Below, in pieces: positions 44,121 through 50,216 of a stretch of 64,000 nucleotides of DNA. Every line of letters starts with the position of its first letter. The first letter of the stretch is position 1. The position numbers were made by a program, and so were the translations under genes. The DNA comes from an uncultured Roseicyclus sp. (GTDB lineage: Bacteria > Pseudomonadota > Alphaproteobacteria > Rhodobacterales > Rhodobacteraceae), in assembly GCA_947489665.1 (NCBI GenBank), contig CANLEH010000002.1, positions 248,001 to 312,000 on the forward strand. Reading direction: 5' to 3'. The notes below the pieces were generated by a model. The model was not told the DNA's origin. It was given only the letters and a program-made list of their open reading frames with translations, and searched no databases.

Positions 44121-44912
44121 ATGATCGAAGTTCAAAACCTCCACAAACATTTCGGCGGCTTCCACGCCGTGGATGGTGCGTCTCTCAAGATCGAGACAGG
44201 CTCGATCACCGGGCTTATTGGCCCGAACGGCGCCGGAAAAACCACGCTTTTCAACGTGATCGCGGGCGTTCTTGAACCAACATCAGGGCGTGTGCACATG
44301 GACGGCGAGGACATCACCGGCCTGCCGCCGCACAAACTCTTCGGCAAGGGGCTGCTGCGCACCTTCCAGATCGCGCATGAATTCAGCTCCATGACGTGCC
44401 GCGAGAACCTGATGATGGTGCCCGAAGGCCAGACCGGCGAAAGCCTGTGGAACACATGGTTTGGCCGCAAACGCATCGCCGACGAAGAACGCGCATTGCG
44501 CGCCAAGGCCGACGAGGTCCTCGAATTCCTGACCATCACCCACCTTGCCGACCATCCGGCAGGTGCCGTCTCAGGCGGGCAGAAAAAGTTGCTGGAGCTT
44601 GGCCGCACCATGATGGTCGACGCCAAGATCGTGTTTCTGGACGAGGTCGGCGCAGGTGTGAACCGCACGCTACTGAATACAATCGGCGACACGATCCTGC
44701 GCCTGAACAAGGAACGGAACTATACCTTCTGCGTCATCGAACATGACATGGATTTCATCGGCAAAATCTGCGGTCCGGTGATCTGTATGGCCGAAGGAAA
44801 GGTCCTGGCGGAAGGCACCCTTGAGGAGATCAAGGCGAACGAGCAGGTAATCGAGGCCTATCTGGGCACCGGCCTGAAGAACAAGGATCAGCTTGAAAGC
44901 ACGCCTGCATGA
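44121..44912 (+). CDS. livG: liv ABC transporter ATPase LivG
   Basis: This 263-residue ATPase has Walker A GLIGPNGAGKTTLFN near residues 33-47. The signature region is VSGGQKKLLELGRTMM, and Walker B is AKIVFLDEVGAGVN. The LivG-type insertion precedes FCVIEHDMDFIGKICGPV. It couples ATP hydrolysis to LivHM permeation. The stop overlaps the next ATG (ATGA). Confidence 0.94.
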   Translation: MIEVQNLHKHFGGFHAVDGASLKIETGSITGLIGPNGAGKTTLFNVIAGVLEPTSGRVHMDGEDITGLPPHKLFGKGLLRTFQIAHEFSSMTCRENLMMVPEGQTGESLWNTWFGRKRIADEERALRAKADEVLEFLTITHLADHPAGAVSGGQKKLLELGRTMMVDAKIVFLDEVGAGVNRTLLNTIGDTILRLNKERNYTFCVIEHDMDFIGKICGPVICMAEGKVLAEGTLEEIKANEQVIEAYLGTGLKNKDQLESTPA

Positions 44913-45469
44913 TCAAGGCGTGGACGATGCTGGTGGTCGCGGCTCTCGGCGCACCGGCGTTCGCACAAATCAGCCCCAAGGACGGCGATCTGCCCATGCC
45001 GGGTTCCGCCCCATGCCCCCTGATTGCCGAACCCGTCCGGTTCTGCGGGACGTCCCCGCAATTCGTGCTGACACCCCAGTCCGACAACAGCGAAATCACC
45101 AGCTACTACGCGACCCCGCAGGGCATACAGGCCATCGCCGTGGTGGAGCCCATTGGCCGGGCAGACGGGCTAACCATCGAACGCCTGCAAGAAGTGGCCC
45201 TGGAAAACCTTGCCGCAGCCGCGAATGTGAGCGTCGAATCTCTTCCCGTGATCCAGAGCGGGCAGTTGATCATTGCAGGCGGTCCGCATCCGAATTTCGT
45301 CTACCGCGGAACAGTTGATGGGGAAATGTACGTCTACTCGAACTCCCTTCTGTTGATGGAAAACAGCGTCGCCCAGTTCGTCACGATCGAGGGCGGCGTG
45401 ACCACCTATTCACCACGCCACCGCTCCCTCCACCTGCAATTTCTTGAACAAATGCAGATTAACCAATGA
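44909..45469 (+). CDS. exported hypothetical protein inside the liv operon (1)
   Basis: This 186-residue protein has a signal peptide (IKAWTMLVVAALGAPAFA, cleavage before Q) and a cysteine pair (SAPCPLIAEPVRFCGTSP). The remainder is a beta-rich domain with VYRGTVDGEMYVYSNSLLLM and FVTIEGGVTTYSP. It is coupled by ATGA to livG and to the next gene. I do not recognise a family. A periplasmic role linked to the transporter is inferred only from position. Confidence 0.8.
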   Translation: MIKAWTMLVVAALGAPAFAQISPKDGDLPMPGSAPCPLIAEPVRFCGTSPQFVLTPQSDNSEITSYYATPQGIQAIAVVEPIGRADGLTIERLQEVALENLAAAANVSVESLPVIQSGQLIIAGGPHPNFVYRGTVDGEMYVYSNSLLLMENSVAQFVTIEGGVTTYSPRHRSLHLQFLEQMQINQ

Positions 45470-45996
45470 CCTTGGCCCGCGCGATCGCCACGGCATGTGC
45501 GACCTGTCTGACGAGCGCGGCACTTGCCGATTGCACAGACTGGGGCCCTGATCTTGCGGTGTGCAGCACGCCCGACATCACAGTGGCTTATGGTGAGGCC
45601 GGCTTCCCATCAGCCGAAATTCGGACCGATACACGCGTAGTCCAGCTGTTCTGGACCGTCGCTGGCGAACGCTTGGAAAACGCAAACGATCTCGAACCCT
45701 TTTTTTGGGGTCTTTGGGGTTTGCTCGCCGACCGTCTCGCTGCACGCGGTTCGATCAATTACGGCACCGATTACGCCCACACAATCGATGGAAGACCTGT
45801 GCGCGGAAATGTCTTCACTCTTCGCCCCGCGACTGGACATGAGATGTTCTTCATCCGGCTTGAAGTGACTGAGGCGCACGGGTTTCCGGTCGCCGTCGAG
45901 GTGATTGAACCGGCTTTGGGCTCGGACACCGACGTCACCAATGCCTTGCTCGCCCGGGCCATCTCCATGATACAACCGCAAGAAACCGGCCAGTGA
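45466..45996 (+). CDS. exported hypothetical protein inside the liv operon (2)
   Basis: This 176-residue protein has a signal peptide ending SAALA before DCTDWGPDLAVCSTPD, so two cysteines (C-x9-C) lie at the mature N-terminus. The rest is mixed alpha/beta, including FFWGLWGLLADRLAARGSIN and VRGNVFTLRPATGHEMFFIR. No family is recognised. Its ATG overlaps the preceding stop, and livF begins 34 bases after it. Confidence 0.8.
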   Translation: MTLARAIATACATCLTSAALADCTDWGPDLAVCSTPDITVAYGEAGFPSAEIRTDTRVVQLFWTVAGERLENANDLEPFFWGLWGLLADRLAARGSINYGTDYAHTIDGRPVRGNVFTLRPATGHEMFFIRLEVTEAHGFPVAVEVIEPALGSDTDVTNALLARAISMIQPQETGQ

Positions 45997-46030: not shown

Positions 46031-46771
46031 ATGACCCAGACCGCAGCCGCCACCGAAACCACAACGCCCTTCCTGATTGGCGATGCCATGACGGGCGGCT
46101 ACGGCTCGGGCGCCGACATCCTGCACGCATGCACCATTGCCGTGAACCCTGGCGAGATTGCCGTGATCGTCGGGCCCAACGGCGCGGGCAAATCCACATC
46201 GATGAAGGCCGTCTTCGGGATGCTGAACCTGCGCGAAGGGCATGTGATGCTGGACGGCGCCGACATCTCGCACCTCACGCCTCAGGCCCGTGTCGCGGCG
46301 GGAATGGGCTTCGTGCCGCAAACCTCGAATATCTTCACGTCCATGACGGTCGAGGAAAATCTCGAAATGGGCGCCTTCATCCGCAAGGATGATTTCCGCA
46401 CCACGATGGAACAGGTCTACGACCTTTTCCCGATCCTGCGCGAAAAACGCAAACAGGCGGCGGGCGAGCTTTCCGGTGGCCAGCGCCAGCAAGTCGCCGT
46501 GGGCCGCGCGCTGATGACCCAGCCCAAGGTCCTGATGCTGGACGAGCCCACCGCAGGCGTCAGCCCCATCGTGATGGATGAGCTCTTTGACCGCATCATC
46601 GAAGTCTCGCGGACCGGTATCCCGATCCTCATGGTAGAACAGAATGCCCGCCAAGCGCTGGAGATCGCGGATCGCGGTTATGTCCTTGTGCAAGGGCGCA
46701 ATGCCTATACCGGCACCGGCAAGGAACTTCTGGCCGACCCCGAAGTGCGCAAAAGCTTCCTCGGGGGATAA
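46031..46771 (+). CDS. livF: liv ABC transporter ATPase LivF
   Basis: This 246-residue ATPase has Walker A VGPNGAGKSTSMKAVFG near residue 46. The LivF-type MGFVPQTSNIFTSMTVEENL, signature LSGGQRQQVAVGRALM, Walker B VLMLDEPTAGVSP and H-loop-like ILMVEQNARQALEIADRGYV follow. It forms the ATPase heterodimer with LivG. It is the gene directly before the tandem exported family. Confidence 0.95.
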   Translation: MTQTAAATETTTPFLIGDAMTGGYGSGADILHACTIAVNPGEIAVIVGPNGAGKSTSMKAVFGMLNLREGHVMLDGADISHLTPQARVAAGMGFVPQTSNIFTSMTVEENLEMGAFIRKDDFRTTMEQVYDLFPILREKRKQAAGELSGGQRQQVAVGRALMTQPKVLMLDEPTAGVSPIVMDELFDRIIEVSRTGIPILMVEQNARQALEIADRGYVLVQGRNAYTGTGKELLADPEVRKSFLGG

Positions 46772-46777
46772 GGGGAT

Positions 46778-47167
46778 ATGGAAGCCGTCGTCGTCCTTCT
46801 CACCTGCCTCTTCGCCACATTCTGTGCGCCCGATGGCAGTTGCACGGACACGGCCCCTCTGCCCGTGACGCTGGATTTCGGGGCCGATGACCAGTCGATC
46901 CGCTTGTGGACCTCGGCGGATGCGACAGGCCGTCCGGTCGAAGTGGAAATCGTTCCCCCCTTACCAAGCGCGCAAGGGCAGCCCCTGCACCTACTGTCAC
47001 GGTCTCGCGATCATGGCGCATTGCTGCTTTCGCTCCGTGCCATCCCGTCCGACGACACGACGACGCGCGCCAGCCTACGCCTTCATCCAGACCGCGGCGG
47101 CAATCCGACAGGCCCGGACGCGCTTTTGTCGGAAGCCATCTGCACACAGCGGTTTGCGGCCCCATGA
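46778..47167 (+). CDS. four-cysteine exported family, member 1 (divergent)
   Basis: This 129-residue protein has a hydrophobic N-terminus (EAVVVLLTCLFATF) and the tandem-family spacing C-x5-C-x5-C in TCLFATFCAPDGSCTD. A fourth Cys lies near the end (SEAICTQRF). Here the first Cys falls within the signal-like segment, and the TxH motif of other members is absent, so it is a divergent member. A ribosome site AAGGGGAT abuts the ATG. Its stop overlaps the next ATG (ATGA). Function unknown. Confidence 0.72.
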   Translation: MEAVVVLLTCLFATFCAPDGSCTDTAPLPVTLDFGADDQSIRLWTSADATGRPVEVEIVPPLPSAQGQPLHLLSRSRDHGALLLSLRAIPSDDTTTRASLRLHPDRGGNPTGPDALLSEAICTQRFAAP

Positions 47168-47586
47168 TAGTCTGGTGGAGAAGAGGCGCACCAAGCATTT
47201 TCATGGCTCTGCTGGCCGCGACGACCGCGCATGCGACCCTTGATGATGATCCTGCAACGCCACTTTCCTACGCCGCTTCCTGCGAAACCGTCGAGATTTG
47301 CCGCGAAAACAGCGGCTGCGCCGCCTTTCCGACCTTCGGCAGCCTGTCCCTTCAGATCACGGGCGACACCGGCCAGCTTGGCCCTGAACCCGACGATCCG
47401 CGCCCTTTGCAGGTCTATCACGCCCTTGACACCACGCCGCCCGATCCCGAAGACCTCGGCCTCCGCTTCATCGTGGAACAAGAGCCGACAGACCCGCTCA
47501 CCCGGCGCTTCGCCTATGTCGACCAAACCCGCGCCGGCCCCGCCGGGCGATATTTCATCCTTGAATGCACGGAGCAGGCGGAATGA
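47164..47586 (+). CDS. four-cysteine exported family, member 2
   Basis: This 140-residue protein has a signal peptide (after WWRR, SIFMALLAATTAHA, cleaved before T) and C-x5-C-x5-C in ASCETVEICRENSGC. The following FPTFGSLSLQITG looks like beta strands, and a final Cys sits in YFILECTEQAE. It has no TxH motif. It is coupled by ATGA on both sides. Function unknown; an all-beta disulfide-bonded periplasmic domain is inferred. Confidence 0.75.
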   Translation: MIVWWRRGAPSIFMALLAATTAHATLDDDPATPLSYAASCETVEICRENSGCAAFPTFGSLSLQITGDTGQLGPEPDDPRPLQVYHALDTTPPDPEDLGLRFIVEQEPTDPLTRRFAYVDQTRAGPAGRYFILECTEQAE

Positions 47587-47951
47587 TCCGCCTGCTTCCA
47601 CTCCTTCTGACCTTTGCCGCCTCCCCCGCCGCCGCCACTGGCCTCGCTTGCACCTTTACGCAGCTCTGCTCGCCCCTGACCGAATGCCAGTCCCATCCTG
47701 GATTGCCTTTCACCTTCGACGTCATTAGCGGCGCTCTGGCCCTGACCACGCCAGACGGCATCGCGTTCGGCACACCCCTTTCGCATGTGGAGGCCCCAGC
47801 CCTGTCGCTGCTCTTTGACACGCAGCCAGATCAGTCCCTGCTGCTGAGCGTATCGTCCACCGGCGAAGCAGTGATGACGCAGCATGACTTTGAGGCAGCA
47901 GGCAGGATGGTCTCGGTCAGCTATTTCGGCACCTGTGAGCCCGCCTCATGA
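47583..47951 (+). CDS. four-cysteine exported family, member 3
   Basis: This 122-residue protein has a signal peptide (IRLLPLLLTFAASPAAA) and C-x5-C-x5-C in LACTFTQLCSPLTECQ. It then carries predicted strands, a T-x-H motif (EAVMTQHDF) and the terminal VSYFGTCEPAS. These last features are shared with members 4-6. ATGA overlaps at both ends show tight coupling. Function unknown. Confidence 0.8.
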   Translation: MIRLLPLLLTFAASPAAATGLACTFTQLCSPLTECQSHPGLPFTFDVISGALALTTPDGIAFGTPLSHVEAPALSLLFDTQPDQSLLLSVSSTGEAVMTQHDFEAAGRMVSVSYFGTCEPAS

Positions 47952-48304
47952 TCCGTATCGCCGCCCTCCTGCTGGTGGCGACGCCCGCACATGCTGACGT
48001 CCTGATCTGCGGCTTCGTCCCCATGGACTGCGCCCCGGGCGTGCTGTGCGACCCTTATGAAGTCACGATCAACACCCATCACGGCGCTGAAGCTCCAATG
48101 TTCGACTATGGCGGCCACATTTCGCCCATTCGCGCGGTGCCCGACGAAACGGTTGAGGCCCCAAGCTACGTGACCCTCGGCCATGGCGACCGCGAGATCA
48201 TTACGCTGTTCAATGGCTTCGACGCCGTTCACACCCGCCACTTCACCCTGAACGGTCAGCCCGCAGCTCAAACGACCATTGGTCGCTGCACCAGTTTTTA
48301 CTGA
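47948..48304 (+). CDS. four-cysteine exported family, member 4
   Basis: This 118-residue protein has a short signal peptide (IRIAALLLVATPAHA, cleaved before D) and a C-x6-C-x5-C variant in LICGFVPMDCAPGVLCDPY. The T-x-H motif is in DAVHTRHFTL, and the fourth Cys in TIGRCTSFY. It overlaps member 3 by ATGA and precedes member 5 by 8 bases. Function unknown. Confidence 0.8.
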   Translation: MIRIAALLLVATPAHADVLICGFVPMDCAPGVLCDPYEVTINTHHGAEAPMFDYGGHISPIRAVPDETVEAPSYVTLGHGDREIITLFNGFDAVHTRHFTLNGQPAAQTTIGRCTSFY

Positions 48305-48312
48305 GAGGTTCC

Positions 48313-48729
48313 ATGCGCCCCGTCTCCATTAAAGTCTCCATCGCCGCCCTCCTTTGCGCATTGCCATTCGCCGCCCCTGCGCAAGAGGCGCCTGTGGATT
48401 GGACATGCCTTCTGAACGTGATGTGCCCCCATACCGGCGCCTGTCGCGACCTGGATCAAACACTGCGCATCATTGAGGGTGATGAGACTTGGACGGTGGA
48501 CTGGATCAATACCGACCTGCCGTCTGACTATGCTCTGGTCGCTGATCTCCCACCGGTAGAGGGCGCGGTCCACCAGACCCGCGTGCGCAGCCTCATGCAC
48601 CGCGATGAGGCGACGCAAACAGTGCAGACCCTGACCTTCGACAGCACCGGACATGTGATCGTCACCACCCACCAACCGCACGCTGGCATGCAGGTTGTCA
48701 CCGGTCTTGGCACCTGCGAGCCGTCCTGA
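48313..48729 (+). CDS. four-cysteine exported family, member 5
   Basis: This 138-residue protein has a signal peptide (SIKVSIAALLCALPFAAPA, cleaved before Q) and C-x5-C-x5-C in WTCLLNVMCPHTGACRD. The T-x-H motif appears in HVIVTTHQPH and the C-terminus is GLGTCEPS, nearly identical to the end of member 3. Its stop overlaps a 31-codon frame (TGATG). Function unknown. Confidence 0.8.
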   Translation: MRPVSIKVSIAALLCALPFAAPAQEAPVDWTCLLNVMCPHTGACRDLDQTLRIIEGDETWTVDWINTDLPSDYALVADLPPVEGAVHQTRVRSLMHRDEATQTVQTLTFDSTGHVIVTTHQPHAGMQVVTGLGTCEPS

Positions 48730-48824
48730 TGGCCAACACACTTGCAGAGGCGCTGCGTATCGGGGGCCTCGCGCCCCGCACCATGCGAGACCATTGCACA
48801 TCGGTATCAGAGGTCACATCATGA
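48729..48824 (+). CDS. 31-codon micro-ORF bridging members 5 and 6
   Basis: The frame starts within the stop of member 5 (TGATG) and ends overlapping the ATG of member 6 (ATGA). It encodes 31 mostly polar residues with no signal peptide or cysteine pattern. It may serve only to carry ribosomes across the 91-base gap, so protein function is doubtful. Confidence 0.3.
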   Translation: MANTLAEALRIGGLAPRTMRDHCTSVSEVTS

Positions 48825-49156
48825 TCCGCGTCTTGCTCGCCTCGCTCTTGCTCAGCACCCCGGCCGTGGCCGAGCCCTGGGACTGCACGTTCAACACCAC
48901 CTGCATGGCCAGCCTCGACTGTTTTGATCAGGACAATTCCGCGCGACTGATCGCCGCCGATCACGCGGGTGAGTTGTTTCTGGAATGGCAGGGCGAACAG
49001 TTCCGCGCGACGGCTCTGGACGATGGCACTACCTATGCGGCCATTGGCCCTGACGGCTCAGCCCTTTTGTCTATCATCGGACCATTGGCGTACCTCACAA
49101 CCCACCAGGCTGCCGTCACAAGCTTTTTCGGCAGTTGCGAGACCATCGGAAATTGA
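48821..49156 (+). CDS. four-cysteine exported family, member 6
   Basis: This 111-residue protein has a signal peptide (IRVLLASLLLSTPAVA, cleaved before E) and C-x5-C-x5-C in WDCTFNTTCMASLDCFD. The core includes AGELFLEWQGEQFRA, a T-x-H motif (AYLTTHQAA) and terminal SFFGSCETIGN. It is the last of the tandem paralogues, 49 bases before livH. Function unknown. Confidence 0.8.
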   Translation: MIRVLLASLLLSTPAVAEPWDCTFNTTCMASLDCFDQDNSARLIAADHAGELFLEWQGEQFRATALDDGTTYAAIGPDGSALLSIIGPLAYLTTHQAAVTSFFGSCETIGN

Positions 49157-49205: not shown

Positions 49206-50216
49206 TTGGACTTTCTAAACGCGCTCGTCACTTTGGCGAACTTCGTGATCATCCCCGCCACCGCCTATGGCGCACAGCTTGCGCTTGGCGCGCTCGGCGT
49301 GACGTTGATCTACGGGATCCTGCGGTTCTCGAACTTTGCCCATGGCGACACGATGGCCTTCGGGACCATGATAACCATTTTCGGAACCTGGGGCCTGCAA
49401 GCCGCAGGCGTCAGCTTTGGCCCGCTGCCCACGGCACTCCTTGCCCTGCCCCTTGGTATCGCCGTCACGGCCCTGCTGATGATCGGCACCGACCGCGTCG
49501 TTTACCGCTTCTACCGCGAAAACAAGGCCAAGCCTGTGATCTTCGTCATCGCGTCCCTCGGCGTCATGTTCATCATGAACGGCATCGTGCGCTTCCTGAT
49601 CGGCGTCGATGACCAGCGGTTTGCGGACGGAGAGCGCTTCATCATCCGCGCCCGCGACTTCCGCGAGATGACGGGTCTCGACGAAGGCCTGGCCTTCCGC
49701 ACGACCCAAGGCATCACCATCGTGGTGGCCCTCATTGCTGTGATCGCGCTCTTCTGGTTCCTCAACCGCACCCGCACGGGCAAATCCATGCGCGCGTTTT
49801 CCGACAACGAAGACCTCGCGCTTCTCTCGGGCATCAACCCGGACCGCGTCGTTCTCGTCACCTGGATCATCGTGGCGGCACTCGCCACCACCGCAGGCGT
49901 CCTCTACGGCCTCGACAAAAGCTTCAAACCCTTCACCTATTTCCAGCTTCTCCTGCCAATCTTCGCCGCCGCCATCGTGGGTGGCCTCGGCAACCCGCTG
50001 GGTGCGATCCTCGGCGGTTTCCTCATCGCCTTCTCCGAGGTCGGCGTGACGTACGCCTTCCGCAAGGTCGTGGGCTATCTGGGGCCGGAGGATTGGCAGC
50101 CAGAAGGCCTGCTGCAACTGCTCAGCACCGACTATAAATTCGCCGTTTCCTTCGGCATCTTGCTGATTGTGCTGCTCTTCAAACCCACCGGCATCATGAA
50201 GGGGAAATCGGTATGA
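49206..50216 (+). CDS. livH: liv ABC transporter permease LivH
   Basis: This 336-residue inner-membrane permease has about eight helices. It starts DFLNALVTLANFVIIPATAY, followed by LALGALGVTLIYGILRFSNFAHG. The LivH/EAA-like segment MRAFSDNEDLALLSGINPDR and the C-terminal FAAAIVGGLGNPLGAILGG are present. The start is TTG 49206 with GGGGA about nine bases upstream, which gives the usual family N-terminus. The stop overlaps the livM ATG. Confidence 0.94.
   Translation: MDFLNALVTLANFVIIPATAYGAQLALGALGVTLIYGILRFSNFAHGDTMAFGTMITIFGTWGLQAAGVSFGPLPTALLALPLGIAVTALLMIGTDRVVYRFYRENKAKPVIFVIASLGVMFIMNGIVRFLIGVDDQRFADGERFIIRARDFREMTGLDEGLAFRTTQGITIVVALIAVIALFWFLNRTRTGKSMRAFSDNEDLALLSGINPDRVVLVTWIIVAALATTAGVLYGLDKSFKPFTYFQLLLPIFAAAIVGGLGNPLGAILGGFLIAFSEVGVTYAFRKVVGYLGPEDWQPEGLLQLLSTDYKFAVSFGILLIVLLFKPTGIMKGKSV

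Follow-up and report, generated by a model that had tools for sequence, protein, structure and literature searches.

The space between livF and livH in the liv transporter operons of Rhodobacterales holds a variable number of small genes, most of which are, as judged from sequence comparison, members of one family of predicted exported, cysteine-containing proteins, for which we found no published description in the open-access literature. The window, the whole stretch of 64,000 nucleotides that was analyzed, comes from an uncultured Roseicyclus sp. (contig CANLEH010000002.1, positions 248,001 to 312,000) and carries six such genes, g1 to g6. We suggest, tentatively, that the gap proteins may be periplasmic binding or inhibitor proteins that work like the lysozyme inhibitors MliC and PliC, but are not members of that group.

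The six genes lie on the plus strand between livF (46031..46771, +, ABC_tran), the upstream flank of the variable gap, and livH (49206..50216, +, BPD_transp_2), its downstream flank, just as a first-pass annotation of this DNA had placed them: g1 (46778..47167, 129 amino acids), g2 (47164..47586, 140), g3 (47583..47951, 122), g4 (47948..48304, 118), g5 (48313..48729, 138) and g6 (48821..49156, 111). The surrounding operon encodes a periplasmic binding protein, two ATP-binding cassette (ABC) ATPases and two permeases. That annotation had most neighbors overlapping by ATGA, which is the case for g1/g2, g2/g3 and g3/g4, but not for g4/g5, where there is a gap of 8 bp, or g5/g6, where there is a gap of 91 bp with an open reading frame (ORF) of 31 amino acids (48729..48824, +) that overlaps both the g5 stop codon and the g6 start codon. 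The cysteine pattern C-x5/6-C-x5-C was correctly recognized in all six products (6/6), with at most 7 residues after the last cysteine, and the motifs T-x-H and G-x-C do both occur in g3 to g6; among all collected four-cysteine proteins T/S-x-H is found in 46/79 and G-x-C in 64/79. Signal peptides or hydrophobic N-termini, attributed to all six, are seen in g2 to g6, but g1 is a four-cysteine member without a recognizable signal peptide; g3 to g6 are predicted exported four-cysteine members of the family, and g2, also predicted to be exported, has a cysteine spacing of 5-5-82.

For comparison we used the LivH loci of named Rhodobacterales, taking the best 80 of 558, a sample biased to close relatives (loci are numbered with L, genomes with G), and six tiled ORFs judged spurious (L034_FH2, L015_FH5, L075_FH1, L075_FH2, L080_FH2 and L037_FH1) were excluded from the counts. 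The livF-livH gap ranged from 2 to 2415 bp in the 79 loci in which it could be measured, and the livK-livG spacer was near constant; the gap held no gene in 27 loci, one in 30, two in 17, three in 2, and four, five and six in one locus each. Copy number varies between genera and also within Ruegeria. The cysteine pattern is present in 43 of 89 ORFs of 100-170 amino acids in these gaps versus 4 of 1913 size-matched ORFs elsewhere in the same loci, and one of those four is itself a true member, located in the livG-livF gap; the occurrence of the pattern in the gap ORFs is not chance.

Hidden Markov models (HMMs) trained on half of the loci (21 in each case) gave 38, 36 and 37 matches among ~6200 unseen ORFs in three cross-validations, all of them in liv gaps, counting L013, where the contig lacks livF and the ORF stands directly before livH. 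In these tests g1 and g3 to g6 were matched when unseen, with expectation values (E) of 1.8e-5 to 2.4e-21 in replicate 0 and of <=1.3e-4 in replicates 1 and 2. A profile search of the window's own genome recovered six full matches, all at the window site, and three partial ones (E 0.3-0.85). Within the same bacterial family, 31 of 100 genomes, the window's own included, matched at E <= 1e-4, and the genes were located between livF and livH in 28 of the 29 genomes checked; a thirtieth, G050, gave no locus. Two-cysteine relatives, found with alignment A9, adjoin liv genes in 9 of 10 genomes. Both the clustering of profile matches with liv genes and the variation in copy number raised by the first-pass annotation are seen in these data. 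Across the Alphaproteobacteria, alignment A1 matched 3 of 289 genomes (the window's own, one of the same family, and G678 from another family) and alignment A8 matched 2 of 385, the sole genome of another family again being G678, although distant members may be missed, because genome searches score limited candidates per genome. The G678 gene has no liv gene within the 2 kb examined, and one further locus from the class-wide A8 search lies in a livG-livF gap.

That the family is undescribed, as had been supposed, agrees with the database searches. Pfam and NCBIfam gave no match for g1 to g6, and Pfam none for the 50 proteins in A1 or another 10 encoded in the gaps; NCBIfam, PADLOC and PHROGs left the family unnamed, with only isolated weak matches of single members, and the PADLOC-DB anti-phage defence models returned no family for the 50 A1 members. 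Searches with tblastn, one member each, against phage and plasmid sets gave no match, and a library of viral folds gave none at E <= 0.001 (best 2.5e-3). One of the 50 members matched the NCBIfam BRANT His-rich protein (NF047414) at E 5e-4, which we judged a chance match to the signal peptide: in a genome search only positions of the N-terminal part recurred, the sites were scattered, none of 120 genomes passed the cut-off, and a rescan of 10 proteins did not recover the matching member. A sequence search of the PDB with A1 gave ribosomal protein S12 as its best match (0.078), also judged to be chance. Small disulfide-bonded periplasmic barrels are a known kind of protein, and the setting is unusual.

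An AlphaFold2 model of g6, built on the 50-row alignment A1, has a predicted local distance difference test score (pLDDT) of 90, a predicted template modeling score (pTM) of 0.78, and eight antiparallel strands in succession. Strand 1 carries C22 and C28, strand 2 carries C34 at its start, and strand 8 carries C106; we read this strand order as a probable closed barrel. By a crude cleavage rule, four cysteines were counted in 68 of the 89 gap proteins and two in 16, the latter usually having one N-terminal and one C-terminal cysteine; a recount of 100 proteins gave g1 and L015_FH2 four each and showed a few with five or six. The proteins of L080 and L137 are 45% identical, and L137 is without exactly the middle two cysteines, and in subfamily A4 the middle pair is present in one of four members (L053) and not in its relatives. 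The two-cysteine groups A4, A5 and A6 score 95, 89 and 97% against the four-cysteine profile A3 (pairwise values, not a database search), and in the A5-A3 alignment the first cysteine of A5 lies opposite C2. Given that the middle cysteines are gained and lost together, we infer one disulfide from C1 to C4, which would lock strand 1 to strand 8, and another from C2 to C3, which would pin the turn between strands 1 and 2. The g6 model and the paired loss of cysteines are consistent with the disulfide-bonded beta domain envisaged in the first-pass annotation, as a prediction. A hydrophobic N-terminus is present in 88 of the 89 gap proteins by a hydropathy rule that also passes the signal-less g1.

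The proposal that the array arose by tandem expansion fared less well: the best match lies within the same locus for 2 of 68 genes from multi-gene loci, so the array is better described as a set of old lineages than as a fresh amplification, and similarity among g1 to g6 is weak. Three genus-level relatives show gain and loss, the order being g1-g2-g3-g4-g5-(h remnant)-g6 in the window, g1-g2-g3-g5-h-g6 in G378, and g2-g3-g5-h-g6 in L009. The 31-residue ORF is what remains, at the C-terminal end, of h, a family-like gene that is deleted in the window and intact in G378 and L009; it can be aligned with the final 18 residues of h from G378 (0/2000 shuffles as good) and of L009_FH4 (1/2000). No g4 was found in L009 or L138, the two nearest relatives, and its best match is a copy in L015 at 30%; related copies of g5 are found in L009, G378, L015 and G084.

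Some close relatives have exchanged a cassette. In the Ruegeria loci L069 and L070, whose livH genes are 92.8% identical, the first ~430 bp of the gap cannot be aligned and the rest is 81% identical, and the L069/L076 comparison resembles it, with an unalignable first cassette. Of 13 pairs with livH identity of at least 87%, six have genes in both gaps, three differ by presence, and four are empty in both; the alignable fractions in the six are 1.00, 0.67, 0.56, 0.67, 0.53 and 0.90, four of these pairs being drawn from one Ruegeria group. As a separate observation, the two-cysteine gap genes of L075 (8512-8862, minus strand) and L080 (8641-8994, minus strand) are inverted relative to L051.

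The gap genes are under purifying selection and in most comparisons evolve more quickly than those of the transporter, so that the diversifying selection suggested earlier is not supported: the ratio of non-synonymous to synonymous substitution rates (dN/dS) is 0.08-0.63 where it could be computed, with dS often saturated and many dS values above 1 and hence unsafe. Between the window and L009 it is 0.29 for g2, 0.28 for g3, 0.08 for g5 and 0.54 for g6 (transporter genes 0.05-0.14), and between the window and G378 it is 0.31, 0.17, 0.11 and 0.34, respectively (transporter genes 0.02-0.09), with dS saturated for g1. Other pairs gave 0.16-0.63 for gap genes versus 0.00-0.28 for the transporter; in L027/L032 the livK value (0.28) exceeds that of the gap gene (0.20), and the first cassette of L069/L070 was incomputable. 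In the same Aliiroseovarius pair, L027/L032, LivK identity is only 66%, against 92-96% for LivG, LivF and LivH, a difference that looks like an exchange of the binding protein.

Another proposal is that the genes are passengers of little consequence in an operon with strong expression; weak constraint would explain how fast they change, and recombination in livF and livH would be all that keeps them at one site. The patchy presence of the genes and the deletion remnant in the window are in keeping with it, as is a dN/dS that is well below 1 yet above that of the transporter in most pairs. We nevertheless consider it doubtful: across three same-genus-level genomes g3 and g5 have retained 66-81% identity and a low dN/dS, the cysteines are retained through great divergence, and two intact genes have been kept in G084 at a site that has lost its liv genes.

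That site is instructive in its own right. G084 carries two genes, one g5-like and one g6-like, behind DctPQM, flanked by genes for an HpcH-type aldolase and an enoyl-CoA hydratase (ECH), the same neighbors that the liv operon of the window has. The liv operon of G084 itself (LivH 87%) sits on a different contig, where livF directly adjoins livH and the gap is empty. It would follow that the predicted barrels outlived the transporter at the G084 site. The order DctP-DctM-liv-ECH in L012 is likely the older arrangement. In L127 (3768-9934), an OHCU decarboxylase/polysaccharide deacetylase protein and a tripartite ATP-independent periplasmic (TRAP) transporter occupy the position of the window's liv genes, with two barrel genes left behind. 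In G145 (L143, 1486-2432, minus strand) two small cysteine-rich genes lie away from liv, the first seemingly with an N-terminal membrane stretch.

Given how strictly the site is kept, the gap proteins could instead be accessories of the Liv system, periplasmic barrels that bind or hand over ligand, or tune LivK-LivHM, and that vary with the diet of the species; we regard this as rather unlikely, and it is the strictness of the site that sustains it. The location between livF and livH in 28 of 29 genomes, the occupied gap in 52 of 79 named loci, and the stop-start overlaps that suggest joint translation are all consistent with such a role, and even the G084 exception stands behind a transporter, of the TRAP type. 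Up-and-down beta barrels of the lipocalin and fatty-acid-binding protein (FABP) kind are also among the weak Foldseek matches, although these are longer chains (127-185 amino acids in the rows listed) with no sequence signal and E >=0.02. However, 27 of 79 loci have a complete-looking operon without any gap gene (25 of 79 gaps being <=100 bp), G084 separates the barrels, at TRAP, from liv, which lies elsewhere with an empty gap, and G145 has two such genes with no transporter gene within the 3.3 kb examined. Moreover, a barrel closed over ~90 residues would leave little space for a ligand.

The proposal that we favor, a periplasmic binding or inhibiting role, draws on the small predicted barrel, the varied loops, the lack of a conserved catalytic set, the predicted export and the exchange of cassettes, which together suggest a protein built to bind. 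The livF-livH gap of Rhodobacterales would be a variable site for zero to six genes encoding small Sec-exported proteins, which would act as inhibitors or decoys toward a range of binding partners, in the fashion of the MliC/PliC lysozyme inhibitors; the most plausible partners would be hydrolases or toxins that come from competitors, predators or phages. Conserved livF and livH may supply a strong promoter and the arms for homologous recombination, which would allow exchange of whole cassettes. Of the functions offered in the first-pass annotation, periplasmic inhibition would rank first as our best guess.

MliC and PliC are small periplasmic proteins with an eight-stranded antiparallel barrel and a disulfide (PMC2267010 and PMC6033465). 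The gap proteins are likewise small and mostly predicted to be exported, and eight strands are predicted for g6, with PliC matching its model at E 0.083; they differ from this group (COG3895) in that usually two disulfides are expected versus one, in their cassette arrays in liv operons, and in their restricted range. Membership was rejected on both the family model and the motifs, Pfam MliC matching none of g1 to g6, the 50 A1 members or the 10 further gap proteins. Looser forms of the two MliC/PliC motifs occur in 9/100 and 6/100 proteins, versus shuffled means of 11.4 and 4.3. The Foldseek rows for the g6 model do include the inhibitor-like folds PhiA and PliC as weak matches. PhiA of Brucella (7dsg, 7dpy), presumably a lysozyme inhibitor, although we found no paper on it, is a small barrel of similar length and the best-ranked short bacterial match (E 0.014, template modeling scores 0.43/0.52), but the match is not significant, with 16-20% identity over the aligned part and a root-mean-square deviation of ~6.

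Several observations weigh against a binding or inhibiting role or against the picture of exchanged, disulfide-locked barrels on which it draws. Foldseek gave no match in the PDB at E <= 0.001 for the g6 model, and a DUF3598 protein heads its list (E 0.012); because assorted barrels (FABP, lipocalin, nitrophorin and Cap15) score like PhiA (0.014) and better than PliC (0.083), only a small barrel is indicated. The strict MliC/PliC motifs, SxSGAxY and YxxxTKG (PMC6033465), are each found in 0 of 100 proteins, and it is because of this and the lack of a Foldseek match that we write that the proteins may work like MliC/PliC, not that they are such proteins. L050_FH1 has three mature cysteines. The gaps of L020/L081 (alignable fraction 1.00) and L027/L085 (0.90) are unchanged between close pairs, and best matches mostly follow descent, the partner genome having a median rank of 4 by livH identity, with 33 of 54 in the top 5 and 15 of 54 beyond 15. 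dN/dS is below 1 wherever it could be computed, and g5 (0.08 versus 0.14 for livM) evolves no faster than the transporter. Finally, a tight tie to livF-livH is equally expected of a transporter accessory.

A more specific alternative is that the proteins are periplasmic shields that close the Liv permease as an entry route to toxins of foreign origin or to phage DNA. The position in a permease operon, the predicted secretion and the change of cassettes would suit such a role, and in Burkholderia multivorans a contact-dependent inhibition (CDI) toxin needs GltJK, parts of an ABC permease, to enter (PMC9291907). A link between a Rhodobacterales toxin and LivHM was, however, neither sought nor found, members occur away from liv in G084 and G145, and the 50 A1 members have no PADLOC match; we consider this reading very improbable. 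Also improbable, if less so, is the most far-reaching form of the inhibitor proposal, in which the livF-livH gap would be a dedicated diversity locus of exchangeable periplasmic barrels, with each lineage matched to an attacking protein of its own (a hydrolase, a CDI or bacteriocin domain, or a phage entry factor), held at one site by recombination through the transporter genes and co-expressed with them, so that the operon would double as a periplasmic defence island.

Two of the six genes are special cases. The first family cysteine of g1 is residue 10, and the livF stop codon (TAA, 46769-46771) is in frame 9 bp upstream of the g1 ATG, so that g1 cannot start further upstream; as read from its sequence, it is without a recognizable signal peptide. 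It matched the family profile at E 1.8e-5, 1.3e-4 and 1.2e-4 in the three cross-validations, g1 being outside the training set, with an hhalign value of 90% over 39 columns, and it matched g3 by BLASTP at E 5e-5 when 8 sequences were searched. The copy in G378, of the same genus, has identical cysteine positions and the same in-frame stop at 58-60% identity, with dS saturated; we therefore rejected the idea that g1 is decaying and consider it kept, whatever its role, though it may have lost a periplasmic one. The claim that all six genes form one family stands by profile for g1 and g3 to g6; g2 is at most a candidate member, which scores 14.6% against the family by hhalign, was detected by the cross-validated HMMs only in replicate 0, whose training set held its L009 orthologue, and gave a poor structure model (pLDDT 49, with three orthologues). 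Its orthologues are in L009 (67%) and G378 (54-62%), and beyond its own genome it matched 2 of 393 other genomes at E <= 0.001, these being G378 and an unrelated frame in G250; its putative kinship with the family is suggested by cysteine spacing and position only.

The livG-livF gap of the window carries two further genes for predicted exported proteins, a (44909..45469, +) and b (45466..45996, +), with no match in Pfam or NCBIfam. We ruled them out as relatives of the barrel family (hhalign 0.9% and 0.2%). Relatives of a occupy the same gap in L029, L050, L064 and G378, and none of b were found in the 80 LivH loci or L138. In a Roseibium strain in coculture livK, livF and livH were raised, and the available part of that report does not mention the gap genes (PMC11921356).

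A housekeeping transporter operon in a major group of marine bacteria repeatedly carries, at a single position, variable and predicted exported proteins with predicted disulfides, for which we found no description in the open-access papers searched, and relatives whose copy number ranges from zero to six lend themselves to natural comparison. Were the proteins to have a role in transport, a component of a much-studied ABC system would have been overlooked; as inhibitors or decoys, they would make the gap a catalogue of natural binders that may reveal what marine bacteria must block in their periplasm.

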